From positions 124,001-188,000 of the forward strand of contig NW_017264201.1 of the NCBI RefSeq assembly GCF_001619985.1: DNA of 64,000 nt. The letters are read 5' to 3'. Below are positions 2 through 21,491 of the stretch, piece by piece (within the stretch, counting starts at the first letter, position 1; each line of letters starts with the position of its first letter). Under the pieces are notes generated by a model. That model searched no databases and was not told where the DNA came from. It was given only the letters and a program-made list of their open reading frames with translations. This stretch comes from Xylona heveae TC161. Taxonomy: Eukaryota > Ascomycota > Xylonomycetes > Xylonales > Xylonaceae. A program made the position numbers and the translations under genes.

Positions 2-304
2 AAGTCCAGCCCTAACAAGACATCTGGATCTGCCGTCAAGACCGGCCGCGTTGAGAAGAACAAATACTACGAGCCAGGTCCGCCGCGCTATCAAGACCCA
101 CGCAGCCACATGTTTGCCCCGAACTACTACCGCGGTCCTGTCAATCCCTTTACCGAGATGGCCGAGCAGTTTGAAGATGAACGTGCCGCGCAAGCGGGCT
201 GGTACAATAGCCAGGCTATCCCCTCTGCCCGCATCAAGCGTGAAGCTACCATCGACTATGAAGAGGAGGAGGAAGAAGACGACAGTTATGATCCGAGTTT
301 CTAG
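2..304 (+). CDS. 3' end of a gene with acidic C-terminus (partial); possible cluster member
   Basis: The reading frame is open from the left edge of the window to a TAG at 302-304, giving about 100 C-terminal residues; the start lies outside. The tail is rich in Y, P and charged residues, then carries IKREAT (a psi-K-x-E, SUMO-type motif) and a run of acidic residues, ending DDSYDPSF. This layout resembles the C-terminus of the paralogue at 10781-11587, which ends FIKKEAVTIED. It may therefore be the leftmost visible member of the Myb/HTH-like cluster, but its N-terminal domain is not visible, so this is inference only. No function is recognised. Confidence 0.6.
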   Translation, partial: KSSPNKTSGSAVKTGRVEKNKYYEPGPPRYQDPRSHMFAPNYYRGPVNPFTEMAEQFEDERAAQAGWYNSQAIPSARIKREATIDYEEEEEEDDSYDPSF

Positions 305-801
305 ACCCTCATTCCTCGACGTACCTATCCCCTCTGCCTTGTCGTCCAGAGATACAGTTTCTTATTGATATCAACTGTCTTTTCTCGCCAGCGACAACGT
401 ATGTGTCTTTGACAGATACATACATGGTGATGGTCTCGAGCAAGGAGGGTTGAAGAGAATAATAATGCAGCTGGTCTGTATTTACGACTCACGACACGCA
501 ACGGCTAGTGTTGCTTTACATATGCTCGCATATGCTTCGTCGATTAAATCAATTATTTCATTTGTCTGGGAACTCTGGGGGCGTCTTTCTTTTCTACAAC
601 TACTGTGTATCCATCTCTGACTTCTCGCGGGATGTCCTCTTCTCGCTGAAGTATCCAGACAGACTGCACGGTATTATCATGTCGCATCTCCACTCAAACT
701 GCTGTTATTTAGCTCAGATCAGCTCAGCTCCTCTTAGCATAGCTTCGCTCATCTTTACTCTGCTGAGATTAACCCAGCTTATGGTAGCTAGCTTTCGACT
801 C
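305..801. other. Intergenic, no gene seen
   Basis: Downstream region of the left-edge gene and of the minus-strand gene ending at 802. T/C-rich with short open frames that show no coding signature. Confidence 0.5.
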
Positions 802-1227
802 TTATCTGTCGCGAAGAATGGAATAGCTTATTACTTTACTCGAAATACTTTCTTTTACTATAGTACAAGAGAGCAGGGCGTTCATGGGCTCTTTGTTGTA
901 GATTGAAAGGGAAACGTCCCCAACATGGAAAAGCGCGTCCGGCATCTTTGTGGTCAAGTACTTCTCGAGCAAGTCCTTGTCTGTTATGTCTTCATTCTGG
1001 ATAAAAGGTGTAAGGTCTGGATGCGGTCGGTTGATGTGCACGCTAACAAATGTGTATGCATCCACGTTTTTGGGTAGCAGTTGTTGGCTGTTCTCATCTT
1101 CGGCGTCCTCATTGTCGAACACTGACGGCATGGGGTCATTCGGTGGTACTTGGATGTTCTCATCTTCAATAAGCGATATCCTGCTGCTATTTGATAATCT
1201 ACCTAGACTCTCTTGGGGTTTCATCAT
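802..1227 (-). CDS. Hypothetical 141-residue protein
   Basis: An uninterrupted minus-strand frame of 141 codons opens with two consecutive ATGs and ends in TAA. The product is hydrophilic and acidic in its first half (DNEDAEDENSQQLL), with a more structured second half containing VSVHINRPHPDLTPF and DKDLLEKYLTTKMPDALFHV. No signal peptide, membrane segment or known motif is visible. Composition and length make it a plausible small gene, but there is no intron or homology to confirm it, and it may be an exon of a larger unmodelled gene. It lies convergent to the gene that enters from the left edge. Confidence 0.4.
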   Translation of the reverse strand: MMKPQESLGRLSNSSRISLIEDENIQVPPNDPMPSVFDNEDAEDENSQQLLPKNVDAYTFVSVHINRPHPDLTPFIQNEDITDKDLLEKYLTTKMPDALFHVGDVSLSIYNKEPMNALLSCTIVKESISSKVISYSILRDR

Positions 1228-2667
1228 GACACCTCTCTGTCAAGATGCTTTCATGCACTGCTGTTAAGTGACTCTTTTGCAGTAATTTATTTATAGTTAA
1301 AGACACAAACCATTGGTGGGACAGCCTGTTTATATGCTGGCAGAAAGACGGGCATCATTGCCAGTCAGGATCATCAATGTGCTTTATACCCTTGGACTTT
1401 CTCTCAGACCGAATCACTGACTTTCTTAGGTAGGGTCGAGCGTGTAGCAACGTGGCGAACCTACCTAAGCCATACTCCGCCTGCAGCCGACTATACCGCG
1501 AGACCGATGAACCATTCAATCGAGGGCAACTCCTTGACCTTGCCACATGCAGCGTACCCCGTTGTAACATTTGAGATTTCATCCATTTAAAATGCGCAGT
1601 CACATCCTCTTTCATCACGCAAAGTCATTACCACACCGCTTCTTTCGAGGCCAAGGCCCTCGACGCCCATCCGTAGATCCCCGGCGCCCCTTCAGGGATA
1701 CGCATGGGGGAGGGTGGGAGCGACTACCAAGTAGGGCATTATCGGTCGCACAGACAACGGCCCAAGGCAGGTAACCGAGTCGAATGACAGTCATGACACC
1801 CCATTCATGCACTTTTCTCCTCTGAACTCCAGCACCGGCCGCCCCGGGCCAAAGATAGCGCTGCCGCCTAGCGTGTCTTTACCCCTGAACCAACCAAAAG
1901 GCCCCCCCTGCTGCAACGGCAAGGTATCGTAGCTTATCCGTCGGGTTTCAGATCACAGTCACAAAATGATTCCGCGCTTGAGAGGTGAGGACGTCATGTC
2001 GCATTATTGCAGCCTATGAGCTCAATATGGACCTAGAGTATGAGTTGCTGCCTGGCAGGCAATTTGACCATTTCACTCGTAGAAATAAACGTAGCCCACA
2101 TCGGTATTCGTTGTTGCAGAACAGCTGGAATGTCTACGCATCGACACAGGCTTGAAGTCGATTGGCTCGTGAGAGCGGTGGCTGATCGTTTCATGAACAT
2201 CACATAGATTTGTCCCGTCGCAATTGAACTTTTCTATTCCACTTACTTACGTTTCTTCTTCTGTCCTTCGTGGTCATTCTGAGGCTCAAATAGTTAATCT
2301 TATCGGATCTCATTTCTTTATCAATGTTTCCCACTTACTCAGTGCCCAAAGCCGAGCTTGATTCTTTTGATACACGAAAGTGCATATGTTGCTGAGAAAA
2401 GAGTAGTCCTAGCCCTCTTTCCTCAAGTGAATCGAGGCTCCGTCTCAGATCCCTCTCACCCACTTCCTCTCAACTCTCACTTCGGCATTTCCTCCGTAAC
2501 CTTGCCAAGTTCGCACAGACTTCGACACAACATCTTCACTCGTAAGTACCAGGTCCCACGATTCTCTTCTCAAATGCAAGTAGAGTCACCACTTACTCCT
2601 CTTATAGCTCAAAGTCACAGACGCTCGCAACAAACTTCACGCAAGTCCAACATTCACAACCGCCAAA
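1228..2667. other. Long intergenic region and leader of the gene at 2668
   Basis: About 1.4 kb without a supported gene. The last 400 bp are C/T-rich, as in fungal leaders, and contain a likely 5'UTR intron at 2542-2607 (GTAAGT donor, CTTATAG acceptor) shortly before the ATG at 2668. Short open frames around 1355-1812 overlap on both strands and look random. Confidence 0.45.
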
Positions 2668-3395
2668 ATGCCTATGAAGTGGACTCCAGACAACGACCAG
2701 TTGGTGAGTTATTGAGCACATTTCCACTATTTTGGCCTCTGATCCATTCACCATAATTCTATTCGGACCTCCTTCTAAAAGTTAATTAGCTCCTGTTGAA
2801 AATTCTCGAAACCCACGATCTTACCGTCGACACGAAGAAAATTGCTGCCGCCTGGCGTAAGTCTCTCCCTCTCTTTTCTATGCTCAGTACTAACCCAACT
2901 CAAGCCACCGATGATGGCCGCGAAGGTCCTACCGCTCGTGCCATTTCCGAACGTCTCGTTAAAATTCGCGCCAATGCCAAAGCCGGTGGCGCCGGCCATT
3001 TCGCTGTGAAGAAGCCCGGCAATTCAAAGCCCAATACTCCCCGCAAGGGGCGCGCTATCAAAGCCGAAGGCGAGGATACTCCTTCCACCCCGAACAGCAA
3101 ACGCAAGCGGGCTACCAAGACTGTTCCAAAGGAGGACACCGATGATGAATACGCTAGCTACAATATTCCCGGCACCGAGACGAAGTGGCTCGCTGATGGT
3201 CTGGCTCATCTCAATGGTTCCGCCAGCTATCAGGTTCTTAGAGACCAAAATGATGACGATGGAGATGAGATGGAAAGTCCGAGCAAAAAGACCAAGTCTC
3301 TCGTCAAGATGGAACCGAATGTTAGCAATACCGACTTTGGAGATGAGAACTTGCTCTACACTGTTCCCTTTGGAGACATGAGCACTTCATCCTAA
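2668..3395 (+). CDS. Myb/HTH-like small nuclear protein (cluster member A)
   Basis: Three exons, 2668-2703, 2790-2856 and 2905-3395, give 197 residues. Intron 2 (48 bp) is a multiple of three and would translate through, but GTAAGT, TACTAAC and CAAG mark it as an intron. Residues 1-55 begin MPMKWTPDNDQLLLL and form the three-helix Myb/HTH-like domain (helix 2 IAAAW, helix 3 TARAISERLVKIR). The tail is basic (RKGRAIKAE, NSKRKRATK), then acidic. Two psi-K-x-E motifs are present, IKAE and VKMEPN; the latter matches IKVEPN in the member at 10781. The protein is probably nuclear and DNA- or chromatin-associated, by inference from composition. Its first exon is nearly identical in layout to that of the minus-strand gene at 4791, so the two are close paralogues in convergent orientation. 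Confidence 0.8.
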
Positions 3396-3939
3396 AGACC
3401 AGGCGCTATCTTGCATTGTGCTAAGAATTTCGCGGCATTGCCGACCGGTCGGTTTTGTTTCCTCGTGGTTTTCCTGTTAGCACTCAGTACGGCGTCTCAC
3501 TGGATGTGCGTCTTCAAATATGCAGTGATCATAATCTTCCTAAGATATTTCATCATTTATTATCCATCCATAGCCTATTGCTCATAAAGAGCGTAGGGTT
3601 CTCGATATGACATTCTCAGCCAGCGATAATCGAAGATAACTTGCATGACGGAGGTAGCGACAATACCAAAGCTAATGTCGTTATCGTTATTATTTTTTAG
3701 TTGGCGTTCACAGAAATTAAATCACTTTTCTTTTCAGTCGATGATGACAATAAGCTGCCCCTCAACAAGGTGAAGAATCCTGTCAATGCCGAAGTTCGAA
3801 AATTGGTGACAATAATGATTGTGCGACAGTTGGTTTTCTCGCCAAATTTCCACCAATCTCATCACTCCTTTTCCGAATCTGTGAACTACAACTTGCAAAT
3901 ACATTGACCAAGAAAATCTATGCTAGCTAAGCCTCGCCT
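3396..3939. other. Intergenic between convergent paralogues
   Basis: AT-rich 3' flanks of the two convergent genes. A short plus-strand open frame near 3701-3907 shows no coding signature. Confidence 0.4.
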
Positions 3940-4791
3940 TCAACGCTTCTCAATATCTTCTCTGAAGACAGGATCCCTACTGATCTTGGCGAGAAATGGA
4001 TATATCAAATCTAACCAGTCTCGCATCCGATCTCTATTCTCATTACCTTCCTTGTCAGTAAATCTGACATGTCTTTCTTCCATGCCATCCTTGGCAGAAG
4101 ACGGCCTGTTGCTTAAGTTTGCGACTCGAGTATGTGGCATATTTGGGGGCTTTGTGGGGTTTCCAGGATGGGAGAAGCGTCGTTGCTTTTTGTTATATTT
4201 TGGTTTGGGTCTTTCATTGGTCTCGGTATCGGTCTCGTGCCCAGATGCCCGTTTTCTTTTCTGGTTTGGCGTAGGCGAAGTCACATCGCTGTTTGTGCTG
4301 GGAGGGTCGTCATTGACTGTATGAGATCGAGTGATTGGCGATGTTGCGTCCGATTTCTTTGGATTCCCCAGCGCTGGCCCAGCTCTGCCACTTCGAAGAT
4401 TCTTGATCCGACGATCAATTGCACCCGGTGACAATTGTTCCTCTTTCGCAAAATATATGTTAGTGCACGAAAATTGACGAATTGTGGAAGGTAGTACGAC
4501 TGGTCCAAAGTCGCGAACAGCCAATAATACAAGTAAGAGGGAGTAAGCAGCATTTAAAGATGGGGAGGGAATGGATACTCAAAAGACTGCAATACGGACC
4601 ATTGCGCATCGCCTCAGTAAGTGCATCAATATCGATCTTGAACTTGTGCGTGCGAAGGAGATGCGCGAATAGCTGGAAGATCACGAACGTCAGTATTTAT
4701 TTGAAGTCTCTGTGAGGCATCAAATAGGCTGATTGCAATAAGAAATGTTACTTACATGCGCATCCGAAGTATCTGTCCAATGCATGGGCAT
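3940..4791 (-). CDS. Myb/HTH-like small nuclear protein (cluster member B)
   Basis: Three exons on the minus strand, 4791-4756, 4672-4600 and 4442-3940, give 203 residues. The donor of intron 2 is GTCCGT, less usual; its branch CACTAAC and acceptor AAAG fit, and the phase closes. The N-terminus MPMHWTDTSDAH mirrors MPMKWTPDNDQL of the gene at 2668, and the 12-codon first exon has the same length. The domain continues LFAHLLRTHKFKIDIDAL and LSPGAIDRRIKNLR. The tail is basic and disordered (QKRKRASG, KYNKKQRRF), and the C-terminus is a distinct mixed-charge helix (DRMRDWLDLIYPFLAKI). No psi-K-x-E motif is seen, unlike most members. The role is unknown; a nuclear location is inferred from the basic tracts. 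Confidence 0.78.
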
Positions 4792-4814
4792 TCTCTAGTT
4801 TCCAAGTCGATGTC

Positions 4815-5183
4815 TCAACCGCTTTTCAAGGAAGACAATTGGATCCAAATTGTAGTAGGATGAAAGCTTGAATTGTGAGGCGAAGCAGAAAACACTTCAA
4901 ACGGAAAGAAGCCTTTATACGATTTGAACGCCTTGAGAATCACGCGTATCAACGCGTCACGCTGTAATTCCAATTCAGCTGGCTTTTCGGAGGACTGGCA
5001 AAGTTTTCTAGGGTTTGTAGTAAATTGCCCCATTATCCTGGCCGTTTCGGTATCGTAGCAAATGATATTTTCCACAGCACCTGGAGAGCATGGTTGTTCA
5101 TGTTGTGAAACCTCAAATCTGCAGCGTAACCGGCCGGTGATTTCGGATATGCAAAGCAAACCACACTCATCCTGGTCAATCAT
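4815..5183 (-). CDS. Hypothetical 122-residue protein
   Basis: A single open minus-strand frame starts at ATG 5183 (MIDQDECGLLCISEITG) and ends at TAG 4815, only 23 bp upstream of the start of the next minus-strand gene at 4791. Residues look protein-like (RDALIRVILKAFKSYKGFF), but no domain is recognised. The tight spacing leaves almost no promoter for the downstream gene, so this could be an upstream exon, an old duplicate, or a random frame. Confidence 0.33.
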   Translation of the reverse strand: MIDQDECGLLCISEITGRLRCRFEVSQHEQPCSPGAVENIICYDTETARIMGQFTTNPRKLCQSSEKPAELELQRDALIRVILKAFKSYKGFFPFEVFSASPHNSSFHPTTIWIQLSSLKSG

Positions 5184-5950
5184 TTTACGCGTTTAGAGAA
5201 AGTCTTCCCACGCGGAAGCTTAATGCTCACACGATTTAAACCATCGTAGAATTTACATGTACTGAAGACTGGAATATACCTTAGACTATGACTTATGCAA
5301 TCTTTAGGGTTTACCCTAAAACAAAAATGTCGACACGTGATCAGTCTCTTTAGCAAATACGAAGTAGAGCACGAAGATATTAAAGACGATGGTTTGGCTT
5401 TTAATGCTGCGTTTTGAAATATGTACGATAGAATTGTCTGAATACAAATATGCAAAGTTTGAATTTTGTGTTGAAAGATTGATGTGGCTGAGCCCAAGGT
5501 GTACCTCCAGCTGCAAAATTTGACGTAATTGTTGTTTCATTGATTATGTCTGATATGAAATAGCAAACAAACTGGCAATCAGCGTTGAGAATATGATGCA
5601 CGGCAATATTACCAACATTGTCTCAGCCAGTCAAACAAACTACTACGCAGCAAGCTTAAATAAAGATCCTTAATTACTCATGTTCATTCGAATAGAATAC
5701 AGTTTGTCTACTCTGTATCGCTTTAAAATAATTCCTTCAGAAATCAATTCGGGGTCCAATAAACAGGGAACCACAGAATTGAGGGGAAACCAATCTTGAC
5801 AGTGCCTAGTGGCAGAAACTTAAGATCCACCGTGCGGTATAAGCCACGCAATTCTAGGAAACTGCTTAAGACTGATGAAGAAGAGAGGCCTAGTGATCCA
5901 AATTCTATTAGTCAAATGCAGTTTGATTGTCTCGGAAAGAGGTCTACCTA
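5184..5950. other. Intergenic, AT-rich
   Basis: No supported gene. Overlapping minus-strand open frames at 5180-5601 are short and low in coding character. Confidence 0.4.
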
Positions 5951-6611
5951 CTATTTAGTGGTGCGAGTCTTCTTCGCATTGCCGCGGTTTGGGGTCTTGG
6001 TCGCCGCAGCGGCAGGAGCGGCTTTACCACGTTTAGTGGCGCGCTTCTTAGAACAAACAGGCGGCTCGATAGTGCTTCCGTCATTGCCCTCAGTAGTGGA
6101 AGCTTCGGCGCCGACTCTCTTACGTTTGCCAGCGGTAGAGACGCTTTTGGCCTTGGGCGGGGTGGGGGCAGTGGCACCTTCATCTTCCTCAGCAGCGAAA
6201 GCACACGGAGAGCCGTAGGCATGGCCAGCACTACGATATTTAAGCTTTAGGTCGTAGTGCCTCTTTCTAGTTTGCTTGTTAGTCATATATATATCTTAGT
6301 AGAAAGGGAGTAAGGAAAAGTTAGAGATGCATGTTGGGTACTGCTTGACTGCGCTGTTTTTGGAGAGGAAGATGATGAAAACAAAACTGAATGCAAATAA
6401 ATGAGGAGACAAGGAATAAACAGTCTAGTAACACTCATACAATCTCCAGCCTGCTTAGATGTATGAGTGTCGAGACCTACCGAAGAGCTTCGGGGCTGGC
6501 ATCCGAGTCAAGAATACTCTTGACGGAGTCCCAGTTGATGTGTTCGCGGCTTGACTCAATCACCGCAAGAAGAAGCCTGATTTGGGCCGTGGTCGGAGGC
6601 TTGACGCTCAT
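5951..6611 (-). CDS. Myb/HTH-like small nuclear protein (cluster member C)
   Basis: Two exons on the minus strand, 6611-6481 and 6266-5951, give 148 residues. The donor is GTAGGT, the branch TGACTAAC and the acceptor CTAG; the phase-2 junction creates an arginine. Residues 1-60 contain the domain: TTAQIRLLLAVIESS, then INWDSVKSIL, then SPEALRKRHYDLKLKY. The (I/V)(D/N)(W/F) start of helix 2 matches the members at 7658, 10781 and 12456. The C-terminal half is Lys/Ala/Thr-rich (GKRKRVG, SKKRATKRGKAAPAAAATK), resembling histone H1-type tails, which suggests DNA binding in the nucleus. No psi-K-x-E motif is seen. It is divergent from the gene at 7658. Confidence 0.78.
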
Positions 6612-7657
6612 TGTAATTGAATCGAGGAAAGAGCAAACAATAAGAATGAAAGAGTTCAAGTCAGACGGGAATGGAGTAATGAGTGAGTTTCAGGATCTGT
6701 TTGTGGAAGTGCTGATGTGGATGGGAAGTTTGTAAAAGAAAACAGAAGTGATGAGGATCTCAACTCAACTTCATCTTGGACAGGCGAGAAAGGCATCGCC
6801 GCGGCGATGAGACTGTGAGTGATCCCTCATAGACTCAAATCTCTGCGATGCAAAACAAACATTGCGAAACACTGATAGGACGAAGCAAAAGGCGCTCCTT
6901 GAGAAAAGTGCCGAGCGAAGACTTATAACAGATAAAACATGGCAATAGGAGACGGCATATAATTTATCTTCTAGACAAGCAGCATAAGAAACATAACGAG
7001 GGCGCTGTTGGGCATTTTGATGCAATATCAACATTCCTGCAACATCGCATGTTTGCTGCGGCGCAGCTATCCGCCAGCCTATCCAACGGCTTTCCCGAAA
7101 TTTTGAACATAAACAAAAACAAGATAAACATGTCAGTTTGCAGCATCATAAACTTCTTGGTTTTGGGGTAATATTGGTTCCCTTCACTTTAGCAGAGGTT
7201 TGATGATTTTGACGTCTGGTGGAGGTTTCGTCGCTGACTACTTACGCACAGTCCCGGTTCTTCCCGTCGTCCGGTGGATTGCCTTTTCATATGACTTCAG
7301 AAAACTCCACCACGCACCAGAAATCAGAAGAAGGTAATCAATCGAAGCATCTATCCGTCAATTCTAGAAAGGTCACAATCCCTTTCAAAAGCCTACCTAG
7401 AACATTCCATCTCGCGGCATGCATCCGTTTGCTTTGATTGAGTCCTGGTTATTGGCAAGACTGAAATGGCTCGTTCACCCAGAATACATTTATTTCCACA
7501 TCCCCTGAACTCAGTTTCACTCATTATCAACATAAATTACTACTATTTGGCCTGATTCGTGTGTCAATATCTTCTTATCCCAATTCCTAGAGATCCTCTA
7601 TCTCACTCAATTCATTTCTCAAGCGCCGAAATAGCATCACGCAGTTATTTGAGAAAA
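6612..7657. other. Divergent intergenic region
   Basis: About 1 kb between the divergent cluster members at 6611 (-) and 7658 (+). It presumably holds both promoters. No further gene is supported; open frames here are short and overlap on both strands. Confidence 0.4.
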
Positions 7658-8352
7658 ATGGCTACTCTTCGCAGGTCCAAGACAATGCCGACAGACGGTC
7701 CAACCGCAAAATTTCTCTACACGATTCTGAAGCAGCTTGATCTCAAATCGGTATGTCTTCACGTAATTTCAGGCATCTGTTTTTTTTGGAGAATATTTCA
7801 CTGATAGATATCACTTAGATTGATTGGAGTGCTGTTGCGAGCCAGCTGGAAATTACCAATGGCCACGCCGCGCGCATGCGCTTCTCCCGGTTCAAGCAGC
7901 ATATGGAGGGCGTGGTACCATCTCCAAGACGTCGCGCGAGCCCAAAGCCGAAGAAGGTCAAGACAAATCCGGACAAGGAAAAGAGTGTCGTCAAGAAGCA
8001 CGAATATGACGAGATGAACGGTCAGACGGACGATGCTGAATGCGCTCCTGCGCGAGCTATTCCATTCATCAAACACGAACGTGTTGATGATATTCCCCCT
8101 TCGAACCTCTACAGTATCGACACTACCCCTTCTCTCACTCATGGCCTGGTGCAACCCACTGTCAGCGATCACCATATGATGGGAATGGATATGGGAATGA
8201 TGTCGGTTATGCCAATCCCGCAACAGCATCAAGTGGCGCCCGAGATGATGCCGGACCGAAAAGATTTTGGGCCCTTTGCTGGAGTTTACCCACCCGCTGA
8301 GAGTGTCATTCCCGTTCGGGTCAAGGTCGAGCCACGATGGGACGAGGAGTAG
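7658..8352 (+). CDS. Myb/HTH-like small nuclear protein (cluster member D)
   Basis: Two exons, 7658-7750 and 7819-8352, give 208 residues. The intron is phase 0 (GTATGT donor, CTTAG acceptor) and lies directly before IDWSAV. The domain reads PTAKFLYTILKQLDLKS, IDWSAVASQLEI and GHAARMRFSRFKQHM, matching the members at 9041, 10781 and 12456 in order and intron site. A basic stretch follows (SPRRRASPKPKKVK), then a Met-rich segment (MGMDMGMMSVMP) and two psi-K-x-E motifs, FIKHE and VKVEP, the second only seven residues from the end (RWDEE). It is probably a nuclear DNA-associated protein. The ATG was chosen because it is the first in the conserved frame and has an A at -3. Confidence 0.8.
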
Positions 8353-9040
8353 CTGCTTTATAGTCAGCACCGTATCTCAAGGGAATTTCATTATGGAAGT
8401 TTTTCCGTCAAGGTTCGAACTCGGAGCAAATATAATGTTAGGTTAGCATTAGTATCATTATTAGTCACTGTGCTTGAAAATCATAAAAAAATTGCGTTTG
8501 AAAGGCATTAATTGAGAAGATTTTAATTTTACCAATTCGTATCTAAATACAAAGAAAAAGAATTATAAAAATGCACGTCATTTTTTATGCTGAATTAAAT
8601 TCCTGTTAGGAACCCTAAAGTTTTTCCCTACCAGATCCCTCATATTTAGATATGGGTAGCAACGTATATCAAACGGAAGTCAAAGCTCTTTTCAGTAAGG
8701 TTCATGCTAAGAATTGTCTCAAGAAACCTGTACTGCAATTTTTGGAAATTACCTTCTAATCAAATAAATCTCTTTCTCATCGTATAAGGGCGTTGTGCCC
8801 CTTTAGGCCCCCGCTTTTTCCTCCTCCAGATTCACTATTCTTCACTCCAACGAGCTCGCCTGACATAAATTCTCCTCCCTCCTTGACTTTTCTTACCAAA
8901 ACAAAAATCTGGCAACCGTCTCAAAACAAAAACTTTATATTTTCGTATCTTATTTCTTTATCAACAAATCAATAGCAGAGGTATATGAGTCACTTAATAA
9001 AGGTGTCGGTAACTTGCTGACTTGGATTGGCTGGTGATAG
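8353..9040. other. Intergenic, AT-rich then CT-rich leader
   Basis: The 3' flank is AT-rich; 8780-8980 is C/T-rich and fits a leader for the gene at 9041. No gene is supported. Confidence 0.4.
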
Positions 9041-10001
9041 ATGTCCAAAAAGGAGAAAGTCAAGACCTGGCTATATCCACCGGTCAGCCCCGAATTTTTA
9101 AAAGGAATGATGCCGGCGATGGATGTCGAATTTCTTGCAGCGTGTTTGAAACATACTACTGTCTGGGCGGTAAGTCAAAAAGGACCTCGTCTCTAAGACC
9201 TTTGGGGGATAGAGTATAGCACGCGAGGCGCTGCTCTTGTGTAATGGTCACTTGCTAATGAAAGATACTTAGGTGGATGCTGAAGCATGCAAGAATGCTC
9301 TGGATTACAGGAACGCAATGTGCGTGCGAAATCGTCTCAAGTCTTTTGAAAGTCGCTTTGGTATTACTATACCAGTGATTCTTCCGGACGTTGACGAGAC
9401 TGAGACGGAAATGGAAACGGAGAGCGATGGAAGCAGTAGCAGTCATACGCTTTCTAATGAGAGTGGAAGCAGCCACAGTCTTTCCAGCTCGCCGTCTCTA
9501 GATCTGCCGCCAACCCCAACACGCGCGACTCCGGAACCTCAGATGCCTCGAATTCCCCGAATCGCTCCACCTGCATTAAAGAGACCAAGTGGAGCAAAAG
9601 ACAAAAACAAACGTCCTAAAAAACGGGTGCGATTTCAAAGAGAGGATCCTACAATACACAGATTCACAACAGTGAACAAGGAGGAAGGCACGGTGAGGAT
9701 TGATCGGGAAGAAATTGCGGAGTTTTTTGTCAAAAGACATAACTGGTGCACTAAATGTAAGAAATGTATCGAAAGAGCAAGATGTGAACTCGACCATCTT
9801 GATCTTGACGGAAGGCTTCTGCTACTTTCTTCCATTGCACAACATGAGATTGACCAGGGGACTGCTGGAGCGGACACCGGCCTAATGCTCTTCGCGCAGT
9901 GGATGTTGGAACATGCTGAAAGTCTTCGGGGTGTCGATAAGATTGGTGATGGTAAATTTCGTCTTGAAAGGGTCAAGAAGAACACGGAGACCGATAATTG
10001 A
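9041..10001 (+). CDS. Myb/HTH-like protein (cluster member E)
   Basis: Two exons, 9041-9169 and 9273-10001, give 285 residues. The phase-0 intron (GTAAGT, CTTAG) lies directly before VDAEAC, the same aligned site as in the members at 7658, 10781 and 12456. The domain reads MDVEFLAACLKHTTVWA, VDAEACKNALDY and NAMCVRNRLKSFESRFG. A Ser/Glu/Thr-rich acidic region follows, then a strongly basic patch (KDKNKRPKKRVRF). Unlike its relatives it has an extra C-terminal module, with WCTKCKKCIERARCELDHL (a Cys cluster that might bind metal) and a helical end. No psi-K-x-E motif is evident. Its function is unknown, and it is the most diverged of the small members. Confidence 0.75.
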
Positions 10002-10780
10002 TTGTTAGCATGTCTGGGGAAGCGAGAATGATAGCTTACTCTAGAGATATATTATAGTAACAACATTACTTTGGTTTCGTCTTGAAATTCTCTGTCTCCG
10101 AGCCATTATCTGCCTTCTCACTTACATTTGAGAATTCATGGGATATATTTTTTCTTCCTCTAGTCAAGGATTGTTCCTCCCCTGAAATCACTCCTTTCCC
10201 TCAACTCTCGCGTCAAGCTCACTTGAAATCCCGGCCCCCTTTTCTGAACCCAGGAACCACTTATATTCCCTTCTTCTCCCTTCTCTTTTGGCTGCTCATT
10301 AATCATCTCTCATATCCCTCAGAAGTCTTTACCCCGCCCTCTCCTACCTGATATTTCTTTCAGAGACTTTTCCTTCAAGACGCAATCCATTCTTCAAGAG
10401 CCTCTTCTGTAAGTTTTACTGAGCTTTTATTGGAATACTAACAGCGTCCCAATCTCACCTTCCCCGTCCCTCACTCATCTCTTCTTGTAATTTCTCCCTC
10501 CTTTACCTCCTCGTCTATTCTCTCTTCCTACACAACACACAATCTCTTCTCATTCTTATTGCTTTCCAACCTACTCACTGGTGTATTCAAAGGCGTTTCG
10601 GTTTCCGCCAGCTCCTTTCTTTACATCCAAGTTACGAGTCTTCGAACTCAAGGGTAAGCATTCCATGGACTTGAACGATGTATAGATTTTCCCAGTGTCT
10701 TTGGGTAGTTGACTGTCTTTCTTCTTACAAACTACAGACAAACCTACCTCTTTTGCATACAGTCAAACAATACTGTCAAA
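10002..10780. other. Intergenic with long pyrimidine-rich leader
   Basis: From about 10130 to 10640 the plus strand is strongly C/T-rich, typical of fungal promoters and leaders, ahead of the gene at 10781. No gene is supported. Confidence 0.45.
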
Positions 10781-11587
10781 ATGTCGGATAAAGGAGTTAC
10801 CAATCTCTACAAGCCAACTGACGCTGAAGCTCGTCTTCTGATTGCTTGCTTCCGCAACATCGGGGAGAATGTCAATGATAAGGCAAGTAAAATGCCGTTC
10901 GCTCGCAACGCAGTGGCACTCCTCCTACATTAAAGAAATGCCCTCGCATCCTCTCCTCTTGGCCCGAGTTAATGTTATTATGCTTCATTCATACGCTGCG
11001 TATCCGCCGTCTATTGGCTTGACTGGAAGTAATCTGCTTTTTGATGGGCCTAAGTCACGACTACTCATTATATTCCTGGAAATTATGCTTCTGCTCCCCT
11101 CTGGCTAGGCTTTCACAAAAAGCATATCGCTAATGTCGAGGAATAGATTAATTTTGATCAAGTTGCGATCGATACGGGATACAAGACGGCTGTGATTGCC
11201 CGCCAACTTTTTAATCGCCTCAAAAAGATGATCAATGACGCTGCTGATATGCCGAAAGTTAAGGCTGAGAAAACTCCAAAGGCTGCTACCAAGCGCAAGG
11301 CTGCCGCTTCCAAGGGCGATGAGACCCCCAAGAAAAGAGGCAGGAAGACCAACCCTAAGCTGTCTAAACCTACCACCGATATTGAGGATGACGCCGATGA
11401 TGAAGAATCGGTCGTGAAGCCGGAGGAAGCAATTTTGCTCGATGAAGACCTCAATGAGAAACTTGAAGATGAAGATGACGATGACTCTGTTCATGAAACC
11501 ATCAAGGTTGAGCCTAATGTCGCTTCTGGTTTCACTCCTGTCAACAATCCCTTTATTAAGAAGGAGGCTGTGACGATTGAGGATTAG
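10781..11587 (+). CDS. Myb/HTH-like small nuclear protein with four psi-K-x-E motifs (cluster member F)
   Basis: Two exons, 10781-10882 and 11147-11587, give 180 residues. The intron is 264 bp and appears to be of GC-AG type (GCAAGT donor, GCTAAT branch, AATAG acceptor). Its position, phase 0 directly before INFDQV, is the shared site of the family, which supports the unusual donor. The domain reads AEARLLIACFRNIGENVNDK, INFDQVAIDTGY and AVIARQLFNRLKKM. The tail has an AT-hook-like basic stretch (KKRGRKTNPK), an acidic stretch and four psi-K-x-E motifs: VKAE, VKPE, IKVEPN and, near the end, FIKKE. It is likely nuclear. IKVEPN matches VKMEPN in the gene at 2668. Confidence 0.78.
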
Positions 11588-12455
11588 ACTTTCTCTGCTT
11601 TCAAAGGCGCCATTTGTTTGCTTTGATAGCGCTCTGCGAATTGCGACGAGATCTGGATATCAAATTTGAGAGCGAAAAGGGAGTCTAAGCATGGAAGCGG
11701 GAGTCTTTATCAGTTTTACCGGGGGATCACTATGTCGTTATGAAATTTTCAGTGTGGAACTGGCTTCCGTCTGAGTCGATGTCGTTTTTAAGTCCTTCTA
11801 GAGCATATCCAAATACCTGGTGTATTCCAAACCTCTGATCATTTTCACAGCATCTCGGGACAAGCAGAATTTGCAACAAAGAAGACCATCGTCGTGCGTT
11901 CGTTGTTGCTGCATCAGTCTGCAGCCATCCGTCCTTTGACCTAAACTTTATTTTATTCTACTCTGGTTTTTTCAAGCTATTCAAGCCCTACTACTGATGT
12001 GTGTTTGCTCACGGTCAACTGCATCTGCGAGTGGATTTCCTTTGAACATCATTGTAGACCTCCCACAATCATCCGCCGCTATTTCTGGATATCCATCAGC
12101 CTCGCTTCTGGCTTCTTTAGCCTTTCAATTCCTTTACTTTGAGCTGCAGCTGAGTCCTCATTTAGTTCCTTGGCAGTCAAACTTACACAGATCAGAAGCA
12201 GTTCGGAGAAAGTTTTTATTCTCCTCTCACCGTCTCATCTCATTCTTCTATCAGACACCCAACGTCAAAAATCTTGACAAATCCCTAAATCTCAAACGGC
12301 ATTTGCGTCAGAGAATATCCCAACTTTCCTCACTTTCCTTTCGCTTTGAGGACGTCAAAAATCTCCCAGAGCCGGACACAGTCAGACAGAGGATTGTTGC
12401 AAACTCACTCTAGCCACTTCCGACCCGTTTTTAAATAATTCACTCGCGGCTCACC
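11588..12455. other. Intergenic and leader of the gene at 12456
   Basis: The second half is C/T-rich. An open frame at 11997-12413 has leader-like composition and no recognisable protein features, so it is not annotated as a gene. Confidence 0.4.
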
Positions 12456-13466
12456 ATGCCTCCCGCCAGCAACGAAGAACAGTTCAAATTTCTCATTAGT
12501 TGCATCAGATATTCCAACAATGGCAAGGTAAGCCACTGCCCCTCCTACAATATACCCTTCGTCAAACTCTCCCTAACTCATCTGCCTGCTTCGGTCTACC
12601 ACTCTGTAAAAACAAATAACCTCTAATCGCTCACTCGTACCGTTTGTGTTTATATGCTCGTCTTGCTGATACAAAATAGGTTGATTTTTCCGAAGTTGCC
12701 AACGAATGTGGAATTGTCAGCAAAGGCGCCGCGTAAGTCTCTCAATGCTTCAATTGCAGACTTCACTCTTCCACAGCTAGACAAACCAAGTTTCCACTCG
12801 CTCCACCACGGATAAAAAATACTTCGGAACTAGTATTGACTGTTGTGTAGAGCCAAGCGATATGAACGAATGATGAAAGCCCACGGCATTTCGCCCATCA
12901 GCGGCGCCATGACCAGTCCCCCAAGCACTCCGTCCAAAGAGACCGGCACATCTACCACTACGAAGGGGGGCTCCTCTAAGAAGCGCAAATTGGCGAAATG
13001 TAGCGACCTGAGCGGCGAAATTGCGGCTGATGACGAGGAATGCTTGTCTTCACGCATCAAGCAAGAACCTTGCGCTTTCAACTTCAATGCCGAGAATCAC
13101 GCACAGGTGCTTATTAAACGCGAGGACGCCGAGAAAGAACTATCCGGATTTCTTGACCGGTCTATTTCCCACGATGATAATAACAACGGAGGATTTATCA
13201 GTGGTGCAGCGCTTGATGATCCTTTTGGCGTTGTCGGCGGCAGTACCGGATATGATGGTGCGAGCGAACTTGCTACGTACGGCGGATACTTGCATTCCGA
13301 TAGTCCTGGATATACCGTGGGATCGTACAACCACGTTGGGACGTTTGAAGATGCGGGTATGTCATTTCGCGGGGGCTTTGCGGGCTTGAATATGGGCGAT
13401 GAGAGTCTTGCGCAGGGCGACCAAGGTCCGGAAATTGTGGGTTTGGATGCAGAGGAACACGTCTGA
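12456..13466 (+). CDS. Myb/HTH-like small nuclear protein (cluster member G)
   Basis: Three exons, 12456-12527, 12680-12732 and 12851-13466, give 246 residues. Intron 1 is phase 0, directly before VDFSEV, the shared family site. Intron 2 is phase 2 inside the helix-3 region, one residue from the corresponding phase-2 intron of the gene at 5951-6611. The domain reads EEQFKFLISCIRYSNNGK, VDFSEVANECGIVSKGAA and AKRYERMMKAHGI. The tail has a basic patch (SSKKRKLAK), two psi-K-x-E motifs (IKQEP and IKRED), and a Gly/Tyr/Asp-rich acidic end of about 90 residues, different from the other members. A nuclear role is inferred only. Confidence 0.8.
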
Positions 13467-13901
13467 TTCTGTGGCGGCCAAGAATGGTTCATTATTGATC
13501 TCCATTATCATTTTTCTACAAGACGGGCTTGTCGACGAAATTTGATACATATTCCGGATACTAAATAGCAAAGGTAAAACCAAAAGATCGTAAAAAAATA
13601 TATTTTCGGCGACTCTTCAATTTATTTCTATCTCTCTCTGACGTTCAAATGTTCCGCGAATGAGGTAAAACCCGAGACTAAATTCCTTCCGGCCATGTCT
13701 TGTCCAACGCCGGCCCGAGCGAGCCACGCACCAACCGAGACCCTAAACTCTATCTCAACTTCATTCGCGATTTAACTGTAACCAATACCGTAAACACTGC
13801 TTACATTGCAATATTCTTTCCATCCTCACATGCAAAGCCGTTGATATACCACTTCAATTTTCCTGGTCGCCTCACTTGAACACAGTCACAATACCCACCA
13901 C
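13467..13901. other. Intergenic between convergent genes
   Basis: 3' flanks of the genes at 12456 (+) and 15142 (-). No gene is seen. Confidence 0.45.
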
Positions 13902-15142
13902 CTATTTCTTCGCCTTCTTTACCACGTCCCCTTCATGCACATTTTCCCCCTCCAGAACCGTCTGGCCCGGCCTCTTCTTCACAGTTTCTCCCAACGAATC
14001 ATCATACGGATCGGGGTCTGGTCCAGCTGACGCAGGCGGGAGATTTAACTATCCGTAATTTATTAGTTCAGGCTAACCCTTTTTCTTCTTCCTTTGTCTT
14101 TCTTCTTTTTCCCATTTCTTCTCTTAAGCAACTGGAGAAAGTACCACGTACAACACACACAAACAAAGTATACATACCGTCATGCGTCCAAGCTCAACCA
14201 GTTCCTCTAATGCTTCGACCTTGCGCCGTTTCAAGTCATACATGCGGACCTCGCGCTGTTTCGGTTCAACAGGGAGCTTTGTTTCCGCGCGGTATTTTTC
14301 CAAAACAGCCTTGAGCGCACGCGCGGCTCGTCTCTGGGCAAGTTTTTCTTCGTGCGTTGCTTTGTCTGCTTTGTCCATGATTTCTTGAGCGAGGTGGATG
14401 TTGCGCTCGAGACGGGGACTGAAGCGCGGTAGAGGAACCTAGATTTTGTTAATATTTTTCCATCACTCGTTTCATTCATTCACTCTTCTTCTTTTTTCCC
14501 TTGTTTTCTTGTTTTCCGTCATCTAAGACAGAGAGATGGGAGACAAAGGGACGAGAGATCGAGATGAAATAAACAAGATAAAGTAAGATAAAATCTAGAA
14601 AAAAGATGTAGAAACTGGAATGGAAGGGAGCTTACAGGAATACAAGACCGTCTTCCACCGCGACAATTATCACACAACGTCGACCCCGCTCGGCGCGTGC
14701 ATTGAGTCGACGGATCCGTGGCGAGTTTATTCACGCATGCTTCGCAGAAATACGTCACCTTGACAGGACCCTCTGAGGCGGTGGTGTTGCTGTTGCTGTT
14801 GTTGTTTTTGATGGGTATTCCTGGAGTTCCGGTGCCAGCTCCACAGTCTGTTCCAGCACCCCGGCGGGCCGCCTGGGCGGTATATTGACCAGTAACAGTG
14901 GAGATTGTTTTAGACCCTGCGCCATCCTCGGCAGTGGCAGCGGCTATACCGGCAGATACAACGGACAAAACGGAAGGATTATTCTCGACGATCCCCGCAT
15001 CAAGTCGAGTACGAAGTGTTTCGAGCTGAGTTCTCAACACGCGGTTCTCGCGGCGGAGAAACGAAAGTTCCGCATTTTCTGTCGTGTTCTGCTGGCGCTG
15101 GTGCTGGTGCTGGGGCTGAGAAGCTGAAGGCGATGATGACAT
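13902..15142 (-). CDS. Coiled-coil protein with a Zn2Cys6-like cysteine cluster
   Basis: Three exons on the minus strand, 15142-14636, 14438-14178 and 14048-13902, give 304 residues; all junctions are phase 0. Residues 24-47 form a short coiled coil (LSFLRRENRVLRTQLETL). A Thr/Asn/Gly-rich linker follows. Cysteines at 133, 136, 148, 157, 160 and 167 are spaced C-x2-C-x11-C-x8-C-x2-C-x6-C; the last three match the second half of a fungal Zn2Cys6 cluster, but the first loop is x11 instead of x6. The middle exon is a long charged helix (LAQRRAARALKAVLEKYRAE). The C-terminus is acidic, then ends KKAKK. It may bind zinc and DNA, but the noncanonical spacing and central position leave that open. 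It lies inside the HTH-protein cluster without being a member. Confidence 0.7.
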
Positions 15143-15221
15143 TTCGTGTCCTCTTTCTCTTTCTCTTCTTCTGTTTGACGAGTCAAAAATCTAAAATCAA
15201 GATGGTGTATTGATGCCCAAG

Positions 15222-15735
15222 TGCTACGGTGACACCTACGAGTAGGCGTCGGGCAGTATCTCCTAGATAATCCCTATCAGCATCTCAAGGGTTCTCACCT
15301 AGTAATATAGCGTCCCGCAATATTATTCAGTGATAGAAGCGCAAGGTGAAATAGCGATTCAGGTCTGGGTCGATAAAAGTAAACAATAGAATTGTTGCCG
15401 AACTAATATCTGTATACTGATAACCAATATTAAAGCGTAACTTCAATATTGTTAACGATAACTTTAATAACGTCAAGAACTACACAGAACAAACTTACTA
15501 CGTAGGAAATCCATCCTCCTTATATAGACAATCTGTTCCATTAGCCATAAATTTTGATCAGCACTGATTAGCTGTGTTCTGTCCTAACTTCTACTAATCA
15601 CCACAGATCATAGATTCTGCCGATGACCTCCGCCTTCCTCTCTTCCTATCTTCCCGTGACCTCTTCCCGTGACCTCTGCCCGTGTCTTGTGCTTCTTGCC
15701 ATCATCTGTCCGCAACCCTTGTAACCTTCGTTACA
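15222..15735. mobile_element. Solo LTR of an LTR retrotransposon with intact 5-bp target duplication
   Basis: A 514-bp segment begins TGCTACGG and ends CGTTACA, so it has TG...CA ends with a short imperfect inverted repeat. It is flanked on both sides by the same 5 bp, CCAAG (15217-15221 and 15736-15740), the duplication length usual for Ty1/copia and Ty3/gypsy elements. A TATA-like TTATATAG lies near 15518, and a short CCCGTGACCTCT tandem repeat lies near 15652-15690. No internal coding region is attached, so this is most simply a recombination-derived solo LTR. The intact duplication suggests an insertion that is not very old. Which superfamily it belongs to cannot be told from the LTR alone; an orphan non-autonomous element is the alternative. 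Confidence 0.72.
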
Positions 15736-15740
15736 CCAAG

Positions 15741-17757
15741 CTATGGGGTTTGCCTCTCGGCCTGATGTATGAATAGAGGAAAACTTTAGAGCTCTGCAGA
15801 TTAAGAGAGAATGACAGTGGAATAAAGACTAGAAAATGCACAGAATGGAATACATGTTCTAGATTCATGAGCTGTAAATTGTGAGTTGTGAACTGTGAAC
15901 TTTGACATGTGAATTGTGACGTGGTTATAACCCAAGTCAAATAACAAACCGGTTCCATGGAATCATGACATGCGTTGAACTCTTGATAGATATGCATAAA
16001 TGCAAATTAGTCAAGAATTGAGACAAATTACTCTACCATGACAAACAGACCTAGCATATCGTATCTCAATTTTTTTATATTCCAGCCGTGTACTGAAACC
16101 CTTTCCACTGCCAAAAACCTACCTATGTATGATAATAAGGACTAATATTCATTTCACGGCTTCTTTTGTGTTTTCTATTCTTTACTTGGGATATATTTAT
16201 ACTTGATTCCAAAAAATAAGACTCTGCTATATTATACCGTCATTACTTTCGAAATGACTTAGCCATGAGGAATGAAAAATATTCTTAACAAATAGTTCGG
16301 TCTTGTTGAGCGCTTAGCTCGCTTGTGAAGTTGTGAAGTTGTGAATATTTACAATTTATGGATAGTGCCGTAGCCGAGACCCGGACTAGACTGACCTGGA
16401 TCGGACCGGACCGGACCAATACGCTTAGGTAGCCCTGCAGAAGCCTGACACTTTTAATCAATCTTCCACAATTCTTGTCGAATAAAGACACACCTTGGAC
16501 TACCCCCATGTGAGCTCGGCATGTATACTAACGTCTTTAAACTCTTGTTTGTGTGTAACGTGGCGTGAGGGCAACGGATTGAAGGGGTTAGGGTTTGTCT
16601 AAGTCTTAGAGGGTCTTACATTCTATTGGCTGCTGTATGGTTGTTCGCATTTCTCTTTACTCGTGCAGTAGATTTGGCGTTTCGTAGTCTCATTGCAAAA
16701 TCAAGATAGTCCATACGGCGGCATGCGTCGCTATCAAGGACAGGGATGGTGCGCTTGCTTGTGCATATGGCGCTTAGCCCTATTATTCTTGCAGATATAC
16801 GACGCTTCAACGGCTTATAGTATGATCAATTCCGGATATACTATGTAATTCTGTGGTAATTGAAAGTCGAAAACTTGGAAAAGTGCACAGAAAGCCGTTC
16901 TACATTTGTTCAGTCTAGTTCCAATGCATTACCCTAGAGACCACAGCCCTATGTAGACAGGAGCAACAGGTGTAGCCGAGGTTCACAGTGAAGCATCGCT
17001 TAGATACTATTGTACTGTAAATCCTGAAGATGGTAGAGCGTCTGATTGGACGATTGATAGTGTTTGTTGCGCTGCATCTGCGCTTGAGGCTCTCGAGTGC
17101 CTTGATCATCTCTTTACCTAAAGGACTCGATATCCGCATCTTCATCACACCCAGAACCCTGACCGGGTGTAAAGACAACTGATGAGAGTTGTGTCCTGTG
17201 ATCACTGAAACCGCGTCACTCTCTGTGAGGTTTGAGGAGTAATCGTCGAAGACACCGGTAAGTCTTTTCCTTGCTAGGCTTCTCAATGGAGGTTTTCACC
17301 CCAGTTCTGGAGCAAACGGTCGTCGGATCTGACCCCTTGACGAGCTGAATGCTCAATTCCGGTATCATGGCGGTGTTATGAAAGCGGTCATCTATACCTT
17401 CATGTTTCCCTTGTTAGAATCGCCTTTCTCTATCCGTCGCTCACTTTTCACTCTCTTCTCACTCACCATTGCATGCATGCCCTAGCGCCATTTGAGGTGG
17501 GGGTGCGGTAGACCTCGCGGCGCGGAAGCTCGAAATTGAAACTGGCTTGGTTAAAGATGAATCTCTCGAGGATATAAAGTCTCATTCCGTCCCTTCTTAG
17601 TTCCCCTTCGGACAGTCACCATCTCTTGACCTTCACCTTCATCTTTCTCGGTGAGTTGATCCCTTCACTATCTGATTCACCTTTCCAAATCACTTCGTCT
17701 TCCTATACCTTCATTCACCAGCTAACTGTATGTTCATTAGCTTCACCGAGATTCGAT
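15741..17757. other. Long AT-rich intergenic region, possible remnant coding
   Basis: About 2 kb without a confident gene. It holds small tandem motifs: GTGAA-type repeats near 15885-15920 and 16320-16345, and GGACC repeats near 16400-16417. Two minus-strand open frames, 16616-16810 (ending RVKRNANNHTAANRM) and 16915-17286 (containing RRSTIFRIYSTIVSKR), look somewhat protein-like and could be exons or a decayed gene; no splice model is convincing. The last 200 bp are the C/T-rich promoter and leader of the gene at 17758. Confidence 0.4.
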
Positions 17758-20003
17758 ATGAAGATCGTCAATAGGCCAAAAACACGGAAGCTGACTCGGT
17801 GGGACAGTAAGTCGACATCTCTTCTGGGGCCCTTTATTTATGGCATGTCGATCCATTCCACGCTTGACCCTCGGAGCTCAAGAATTGAAATCCTAAACCG
17901 ATTGGATAATTGGTTGTTGGATTTGTTTTCGTGTTCGCTGGTTATCATGTGCTTTTGTCTAGCATCGAATTATTTCGGTGGATTCTCTTTCTAGTCCCAT
18001 CCAAGAGGATTGCAGCAGTTGGCTGATATGAAACAGGCGACAAGGATGTTTTGACGGGTCTCTGGATCCAACATGTGTGCCAGGAAGAAGGAGTTAAGAT
18101 TCCGTGGCACAAAATTGTACCCCATATCGGACCCAATGTTACCGTTGGCGCCCTTTTGCAACATCAGGCAAAACTTCGAGACCAATATGAACGAAAGGGT
18201 TTCCACGTCCCTCCCGCTAGCAATCGGCGCGGTAAAAAGTCCCGTGTATCAGGCTTGGCTGCTGAGGAGGACGATCTGTCGCAGGTTGCCACATATCAGT
18301 TGCCGCATCTAGCTTCTGAGCAGCAGGGCCTGTCCATGACATCCAACAAGACGGAGACTGCTTTCGATGATGATGGAGAAGAAAGCGACGAAACATATAG
18401 TGAATCGAAACCAAAAGGGCGAAAGAAGCAAACTCGTGCCGGTAAAAGAAAGCCTCGGTCCCGCAAGGCACCGGCTGTGGCTATCAAACATGAGGAGGAC
18501 TCAGTGAATGATGATCCTTGGGACTCTGAAGTAACCGAAGAACACAAGACCTTACTCACTGACGAAGATTACGTCTCATACCAAAATACTGAACAGACAC
18601 GCGCTGAGGCCCTCAATTCGCAGTATCCGGGCCCCGGACACTTTGAAGTAGAGGAGTCAGTCTCTCTAGGAGCTTCTTTGATGGAATTCGCCGCTTCTCC
18701 AAACTCTTCGGCTGACGAACCCCGTCGTCCTAGTAAAATTGTTGTTCTTCCCATCAAGAGCGGATCAGAAAGATTTCCAATGGGGTTGAGACACTGGCCA
18801 AGCCAGGCTACAACAGATAGCCAGCTTGGGGAGAATATCTCAAGCAACCCCACTGAAAGCAGCTCTGCTAGCGAGTCCCAACCTTCAAACGAGATGAGCC
18901 AACAGGCTTTCCCTGCGAGTAATATCGGCGCTAATGAGGTAAATATTCACGACCAATATGACGGTAATCACGAGTTCACTCAAGCCCGCATGGCGAGCTA
19001 CAACAATCTTTCCACTCTTCCACAAGGCCTTCAACAGATCAGCGCCTTGAGCGGAGCTAACCTCATGAACCCGAATTACATGCAGGCTGTGAGTAGCTTT
19101 GACCAAGCTGCACCACCAGTTCCAGCCATGGGAGTTGGCGACAGTTCAGGCTGGCAACAGGGATCAGCAATCCAAGCGCTCGAGTCATACCACCTGCAAG
19201 CCTTCCCTGACAGCCAATATCTCGGCACCACTGGTACAGGAAATTCGAACAATGGGGGCGGCAATTTTGAACCGATTTCTGCTGCATATGGTAAGCTCTT
19301 GGGCGAGAAATGTCAAATTCGCGAATGCATAAAGACTTCCACTGACAAAGTATATCTCAAAGCAGGAGATCAAGCAAGCTCCTCATATCAATTAGCCCAG
19401 TTTGAGGCTTATATGCCTAAACATGACACCAGTGCTCCTCTCGTGTCCCCGTCTATGGCACCGGTTTCAAATAGTGGCCCGGAGCAGCACGAATACCCTC
19501 AGACCAACATCTCAGATAGGCTCGCCAGACGTACAAGATCAAATAGAGACAACAGCCGTCGCCAAACGCGATTTGAGCCTTATCCCTCTAATTCAATCAA
19601 TGTTGAGGGGACGCCTTTGGTCGATGCGGAAATTGGCATTCCAAGCAACGGCAATGCAATTGCGGCGGCTTCAAATCTCGCGAAATTTACTACTTCAGAC
19701 GAACTTGAAAATGATGCTGAAGTCGGTAGACCTTCAGCGACAAATATGCAAGATAGGCTGAGCTCAGACGACCGTGTCCCAGGGCCGGCTATGGAAAGAA
19801 ACAGGGAAACTCAAGACCCTCATCTTGGAGATTCTGTTGTCAATTCGGAATATTTGGCTAGTGAGCAAGCCGAGGAGATTCCACCATTCCCTTATTCAAT
19901 CCCTGGCTTCCAGGAGTGGGTTGAAGAGCAGGACAGGATCGACATGTTCGGGGAAGCAAATGGCGAGATGTTCCTCGATCCTGTCCCATTCGACTCATTC
20001 TAG
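17758..20003 (+). CDS. Large Myb/HTH-like protein (cluster member H)
   Basis: Exon 1 is 17758-17806 and exon 2 begins 18037 (phase-1 junction). A further 75-bp segment, 19291-19365, has a GTAAGC donor, ACTGAC branch and AAAGCAG acceptor and is a multiple of three, so it is probably an in-frame intron. The product is 646 residues if spliced, 671 if retained. The N-terminal domain reads TRWDSDKDVLTGLWIQHVCQ, VKIPWHKIVPHIGP and VGALLQHQAKLRDQYERKG, matching the smaller members. It is followed by basic tracts (KPKGRKKQTRAGKRKPRSRK), an IKHEE psi-K-x-E motif, and about 450 residues of Ser/Asn/Gln-rich, likely disordered sequence with an aromatic-acidic end (MFLDPVPFDSF) that resembles a transactivation tail. 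It is probably a nuclear regulator, by inference. It is two to four times longer than the other members. Confidence 0.75.
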
Positions 20004-20730: not shown

Positions 20731-21454
20731 ATGCAGCGTGCGTTGACTGCCAGAGCTCGGGCCTCGGCCCTTTCCTCGAGCTCCGCCTCCAGATTACGGC
20801 CTGCCGTTGCTGGCATTAACCTCCAGCAGCAGAGATTTGCTCACAAGGTAAATTCGAACCATTTTCAAGCGTCCATGGAATGCAATTGAGCCACGCTAAC
20901 GTACTTGCAGGAGCTCAGATTTGGCGTGGAAGGTCGCGCTTCTCTGCTCCAGGGTGTCGACACTCTGGCCAAGGCCGTCGCCACGACTCTCGGTCCCAAG
21001 GGCCGAAACGTCTTGATTGAGTCCCCTTACGGCTCTCCTAAGATCACCAAGGGTAGGTTTTGATGCACAATTTGAGATCGAAATTACGTCGCTAACTAGC
21101 ATCTAGATGGTGTCTCTGTTGCCAAGGCAATCACCCTCAAAGACAAGTTCGAGAACCTTGGCGCTCGTCTCCTCCAGGACGTCGCCTCCAAGACCAACGA
21201 GGTTGCTGGTGACGGTACCACTACTGCCACTGTCCTTGCCCGTGCAATCTTCTCCGAGACTGTCAAGAATGTTGCTGCTGGCTGCAACCCCATGGACCTC
21301 CGTCGCGGTACCCAGGCTGCCGTTGAGGCTGTTGTTGAGTTCCTGCAGAAGAACAAGCGTGACATTACCACCAGCGAGGAGGTTGCTCAGGTCGCTACCA
21401 TTTCCGCCAACGGTGACACCCACATTGGCAAGCTCATTGCCAGCGCCATGGAGA

Positions 21455-21491
<37 letters not shown>

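Follow-up and report, generated by a model that had tools for sequence, protein, structure and literature searches.

A probable array of anciently duplicated Myb-type genes in Xylona heveae, several with SUMO-consensus sites in their tails

To our knowledge, arrays of regulator genes are unusual in filamentous fungi. A census of SANT/Myb proteins in Aspergillus nidulans, which was based on IPR001005, records 21 such proteins, 14 of them with a single repeat, and describes the domain as ~50 residues forming three helices (PMC11199622). Its Table 1 contains no adjacent gene numbers, the nearest being AN4524 and AN4527, where the numbers are a rough guide to gene order (PMC11199622). The bHLH regulators of A. 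nidulans are described as having diversified within the family and not via tandem duplication (PMC8396895). In animal factors such as Nurr1, the SUMO synergy-control motif is a proline-flanked SUMO consensus, and attachment of SUMO at the motif holds down activity at promoters that carry several sites (PMC3554661). Here we analyse a window of 64,000 nucleotides from the ascomycete Xylona heveae TC161 (GCF_001619985.1, contig NW_017264201.1, positions 124,001 to 188,000 of the forward strand), in which positions 2668–20003 hold eight spliced genes for probable nuclear proteins, six on the + strand and two on the − strand. With a probability of roughly 0.6, we interpret these genes from their sequences as a local set of single-repeat Myb-type (helix-turn-helix) nuclear regulators that arose by old tandem duplications, with several of the products likely to be sumoylated. 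A first-pass annotation of the same DNA had already placed eight such genes within 20 kb on both strands; that count holds for the spliced models, and the flanks at 2–2667 and the interval at 13467–17757 yielded no demonstrated family member.

The genes, designated B to H and J, invite comparison with the canonical SANT/Myb proteins of Aspergillus (FlbD, CicD and MylA), which have a ~50-residue domain of three helices (PMC11199622), as predicted by analogy for the array proteins. Unlike these proteins, none of the eight gives a row for the classical Myb model in a Pfam scan that reported E up to 10, covered J over residues 1–228, and passed through HMMER filters that drop most matches above ~0.1. 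Because no classical Myb row appears, a census based on IPR001005 would probably miss proteins of the array's type, which suggests that a whole group of Myb-like genes can go uncounted when SANT/Myb genes are surveyed in the standard way. The family that was matched is PF22980 (Myb_DNA-bind_8), with a curated gathering cut-off of 27 bits. By their scores, E (67.6 bits), G (32.4 bits), and H (85.9 bits) are members of this known family, while D (15.4 bits, or 17.9 when trimmed) and F (16.2 bits, or 19.6 when trimmed) fall below the cut-off over the same domain and are likely members. B and C are probable relatives, judged by the profile and intron comparisons given below, and membership of J is unproven on the same comparisons. 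The domain has thus been described before, E, G, and H being members of an existing Pfam family. The arrangement, by contrast, was not found described: no Myb array of this kind appeared in the titles and abstract starts among the matches listed, in a search that left subscription papers largely outside. No publication was found that names Myb_DNA-bind_8, PF22980, or the InterPro number tried for it, and hence no tested function for the family was found.

Shared intron positions are the best evidence for local duplication, and they link in F and D, for which the Pfam signal is weak. A phase-0 intron lies immediately before the helix-2 motif in E, F, G, and H, with no gap freedom in the alignment. 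B and C have a common phase-0 intron after residue 12, downstream of a shared MPM-x-WT start, and a second common intron, in phase 1, after helix 2. A phase-2 intron within helix 3 is common to D and H. Together these make nine coincident intron pairs among 11 introns, as read from the alignment with the count entered by hand, compared with a simulated mean of 0.42; none of 50000 simulations reached nine. Genes that share introns are also mostly adjacent. In a test devised after seeing the data, E–H are contiguous with B beside C in 1152 of 40320 possible gene orders (2.9%), although D and H are not neighbours. Long DNA repeats are absent from the array, the longest direct repeat being 38 nt at 82%, which indicates that the duplications are old or that the genes evolve fast. 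The absence of long repeats and the pairwise domain identities of 4–33% would fit old and fast divergence alike.

The N-terminal domain itself was compared with a three-block profile in which loop lengths were free. Each member was left out in turn and scored against 1000 shuffles of its own sequence and 518 chunks taken from beyond the 20 kb. Seven of the eight members were found in the right register, with scores that none of the 1000 shuffles and none of the 518 chunks attained, which supports a resemblance of the N-terminal domain, as proposed in the first-pass annotation, in all members except J. The idea of local duplication within a Myb/HTH-like family is supported for D–H, and for B and C by way of the profile and the introns, but is not shown for J. 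When the profile was built from B, C, and J, its scores were reached by 0 of 1000 shuffles for F, 4 for D, 19 for E, 28 for H, and 39 for G, with one helix misplaced in all but F. The helix-2 motif had been given as (I/V)(D/N)(W/F)xx(V/I). A broader form, [IV][DNP]xxx[VILC], is present by eye in all eight proteins, but the tryptophan or phenylalanine at its third position is found only in D, E, G, H, and J. Aligning B, C, and J automatically gave few common columns and put helix 2 of J out of register, and the result was rejected. The helix-3 region of C has a sub-threshold match to DUF7158 (15.4 bits against a cut-off of 27); the remaining sub-threshold Pfam rows we took as chance. In the Protein Data Bank (PDB), a sequence search with H gave no match and one with B gave a single match at E up to 10, to MYB21, which was not significant (E 0.95). 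The corresponding search with J gave five matches, of which the best, to a stretch of an entry titled alpha/beta hydrolase fold protein (E 0.023), was judged to reflect chance. No relatives were found in a bacterial and archaeal scan with residues 1–74 of H or in a viral scan with residues 1–60 of B, as expected for a fungal family.

The tails that follow the domain had been considered unrelated to each other apart from basic patches and psi-K-x-E motifs, a description that does not hold up. A basic patch of the form K[KR]x[KR] occurs in all eight tails, with 13 patches compared with 2.3 expected and 0 of 4000 shuffles reaching this number. The SUMO-consensus motif psi-K-x-E occurs 12 times in nine tails when a gene-end fragment at 2–304 is included, and 11 times in the eight, compared with 1.8 in shuffles (0 of 5000 reaching the count). 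Its carriers among the eight are B, E, G, H, and J. Two reversed versions of the motif, used as control patterns, were each expected 1.8 times and found 0 times. As a control set we used 3760 residues from seven other protein stretches of the window, where psi-K-x-E is not in excess (2 found compared with 4.5 expected). Therefore, the enrichment in the array tails is not general. The extended form psi-K-x-E-P, with proline tested on the C-terminal side only, is present once each in B, E, G, and H (4 compared with 0.15 expected). In these four proteins the site lies C-terminal of the first basic patch, while the other psi-K-x-E sites of B and G precede a patch. The tails of B and G also align with one another (Z 5.4, 0 of 200 shuffles), ending in VKMEPNV and IKVEPNV, and are the sole pair of 28 with Z above 3; the score of the B–C tail alignment was reached by 10 of 500 shuffles. 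These shuffles do not preserve low complexity and make the tail alignments weak tests. The likeness to the SUMO synergy-control motif consists of psi-K-x-E with proline on one side in four of the eight proteins (B, E, G, and H). The two differ in that the synergy-control motif is described for animal factors, whereas the array sites are predictions from sequence. PP1-docking RVxF motifs in C and F were considered as a further tail feature and dropped (3 compared with 0.97, p 0.08).

These features suggest how the proteins could work. By analogy with Myb, the N-terminal domain of ~50 residues would form three helices, and its basic third helix, strongly so in seven of the eight, would read DNA. 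The nuclear-localisation-type basic patch in the tail, after the domain, would direct the protein to the nucleus. SUMO attachment on the tails of B, E, G, H, and J probably tunes or represses output, since in four of these tails a SUMO consensus site is followed by proline, as in synergy-control motifs. Single Myb repeats often require partners, and the paralogues may therefore serve as combinatorial partners on shared sites. A tandem set of proteins of DNA-binding type with a shared SUMO-type motif would offer a compact system for studying how new regulators arise and divide work. More speculatively, and we regard this version as quite doubtful, the region could be a lineage-specific regulatory locus in which eight or nine single-Myb paralogues form pairs in changing combinations and use SUMO at psi-K-x-E-P as a common switch, repeated tandem duplication having both formed the array and kept it intact. 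The KRAB zinc-finger arrays of mammals are clustered and SUMO-linked, and a switched array of changing combinations would, if real, be their fungal counterpart.

Several results weigh against our interpretation of the eight genes as one local set of Myb-type regulators. B, C, and J have no PF22980 row and no match to any Myb family in the Pfam scan. In plain HMMER leave-one-out, scored against 3471 background sequences (2000 shuffled proteins plus 1471 open frames from parts of the window other than the array), B is missed with 51 background sequences above it, C is missed with 285 above it, and J is not found. An HMM built from four members recovered the other four above background in 0 of 70 splits, which by the criterion set in the first-pass annotation refutes its claim as worded. 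Each member was held out in 35 of the splits, and topped the background in 15 for H, 15 for E, 12 for G, 9 for D, 5 for C, 4 for F, 3 for B, and 0 for J; here four-sequence alignments at 4–33% identity are a weak instrument, and the requirement to exceed every background sequence is strict. The three-block alignment, with its blocks and loop ranges, was drawn up by eye from all eight sequences at once, which makes for a generous test. J was placed in register with a score that 52 of 1000 shuffles and 61 of 518 chunks also reached, and outside leave-one-out it was found only by a profile of B and C (7 of 1000 shuffles, helix 1 misplaced). The comparisons of the D/H intron and of the second B/C intron each cross two-residue alignment gaps. 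In the tails, psi-K-x-E is missing from C, D, and F, and the control proteins, too, show a mild excess of the basic patch (9 compared with 4.5, p 0.03), with five of the nine in a single chromodomain protein. AlphaFold models from single sequences show three helices in J (mean pLDDT 55.6) and B (60.1) at a confidence too low for a judgement of the fold, from contiguous inputs that comprised, for J, the part of the domain in exon 2 and, for B, a read-through of the 48-nt intron 2 with 16 extra residues. A PDB fold search with the low-confidence J model gave three matches, all insignificant.

Much of this evidence bears on whether D–H alone form one tandem family, with B and C a separately derived Myb-like pair, J a third lineage, and their adjacency due to chance or older shuffling. 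Plain HMMER leave-one-out divides the genes along this line, placing every member from D to H ahead of the entire background of 3471 sequences and missing B, C, and J. The intron places of B and C also differ from those of E–H. A three-block profile built from D–H misses J, whose score is reached by 518 of 1000 shuffles, and on B it misplaces helix 3. However, the same profile reaches C in register, with 0 of 1000 shuffles attaining the score, and reaches B with a score attained by only 2 of 1000. The leave-one-out profile likewise recovers both B and C, the alignment of the B and G tails (Z 5.4) crosses the proposed boundary, and the psi-K-x-E-P site stands behind the first basic patch in B just as it does in E, G, and H. 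We consider a family confined to D–H somewhat unlikely.

A different question is what the domain does. It could be a SANT-like module that binds proteins or histone tails, and the array products would then belong to chromatin complexes as subunits. SANT domains have a Myb-like fold but do not bind DNA, and the lack of a classical Myb row for any of the eight, J being covered over residues 1–228, is in keeping with such a module, as is the presence of only 0 to 2 tryptophans per member across the three blocks. DNA-reading Myb repeats have a basic helix 3, from which typical SANT helices differ. The net charge of helix 3 is +3 or +4 in seven of the eight proteins and +1 in J, where 15% of random 15-mers from the tails reach +3, a charge more in line with reading DNA than with a SANT-like role. 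AT-hook-like [RK]GR[PAK] patches in B, G, and J (3 compared with 0.17 expected) point the same way, and we judge the SANT-like alternative improbable. It is more improbable still that several members look alike just because they contain short amphipathic helices and that only E, G, and H are true Myb_DNA-bind_8 genes. The fact that only three of the eight pass the Pfam threshold, together with domain identities of 4–33%, would agree with this explanation. However, F has the exact phase-0 intron of E, G, and H, D has the helix-3 intron of H, the nine coincident intron pairs stand against 0.42 expected, and the leave-one-out scores of D and F also speak against it.

The eight gene models were built by hand, each open to a stop codon. 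Their 11 introns range from 48 to 264 nt, ten with GT-AG boundaries and one, in gene G, with GC-AG. Codon scoring, for which seven other window stretches supplied the training data, ranked the frame of the model best of six for all eight genes, though with low scores in C (0.08) and F (0.05). Gene B (2668..3395, +, 197 amino acids; exons 2668–2703, 2790–2856, and 2905–3395) encodes a Myb-like N-terminus with the helix-1 pattern W..D..L and a tail with a KRKR patch, IKAE, and VKMEP. Its second intron (2857–2904, 48 nt) has no in-frame stop, and retention would place 16 residues between helices 2 and 3. Gene C (3940..4791, −, 203 amino acids; exons 4791–4756, 4672–4600, and 4442–3940) begins with MPM-x-WT as in B, carries a KRKR patch, and has a weak donor, GTCCGT, at intron 2. 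Gene D (5951..6611, −, 148 amino acids; exons 6611–6481 and 6266–5951) and gene F (9041..10001, +, 285 amino acids; exons 9041–9169 and 9273–10001) are the two with sub-threshold Myb_DNA-bind_8 matches. Gene E (7658..8352, +, 208 amino acids; exons 7658–7750 and 7819–8352) has a Myb_DNA-bind_8 domain, with IKHE in the tail and VKVEP close to the C-terminus. Gene G (10781..11587, +, 180 amino acids; exons 10781–10882 and 11147–11587), also with the domain, has four psi-K-x-E sites, one of them IKVEP, and its intron (10883–11146, 264 nt) uses the GC donor GCAAGT. Gene H (12456..13466, +, 246 amino acids; exons 12456–12527, 12680–12732, and 12851–13466) combines the domain with IKQEP and IKRE. 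Gene J (17758..20003, +, 671 amino acids; exons 17758–17806 and 18037–20003) contains IKHE and is Myb-like by eye only (W..D..L, IPW), which the statistics do not confirm.

Searches of all six frames of the window with HMMs from all eight members, from D–H, or from E, G, and H revealed no additional member above E 0.5. Beyond 22.6 kb, a Pfam search of 20 open frames, from 28 listed at ≥170 amino acids, did not report Myb_DNA-bind_8 for any of them at E up to 0.01. The fragment at 2–304 is the terminal part of a gene that begins outside the window, and its NPFTEM, IKREATIDYEE, and acidic C-terminus recall the array tails. As a ninth member it gains no tail alignment that clearly beats shuffles, the best, with B, being reached by 23 of 300. 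Between H and J, a probable gene at 14124–15142 (−) has a coiled-coil-like start and a cysteine-rich C-x2-C stretch; no Myb-like domain was found in it, and Pfam reports nothing above cut-off for its first 169 residues. Across the window, a bacterial-code scan found no tRNA, and Rfam gave no match at gathering score. An HSP60 gene, named from its translation, lies just beyond the array at 21100–22611, and the chromodomain protein is encoded at 41821–43680 (−; 2.1e-9), ~22 kb from the array. At 48492–52289 (+), two successive open frames match MATH and UCH domains, followed by USP7 ICP0-binding, MORN, and RING finger domains. The junction of the frames holds a GTAAGA...CAG stretch, which suggests that they form one gene, and its product may therefore be a USP7-like deubiquitinase with its own RING end.

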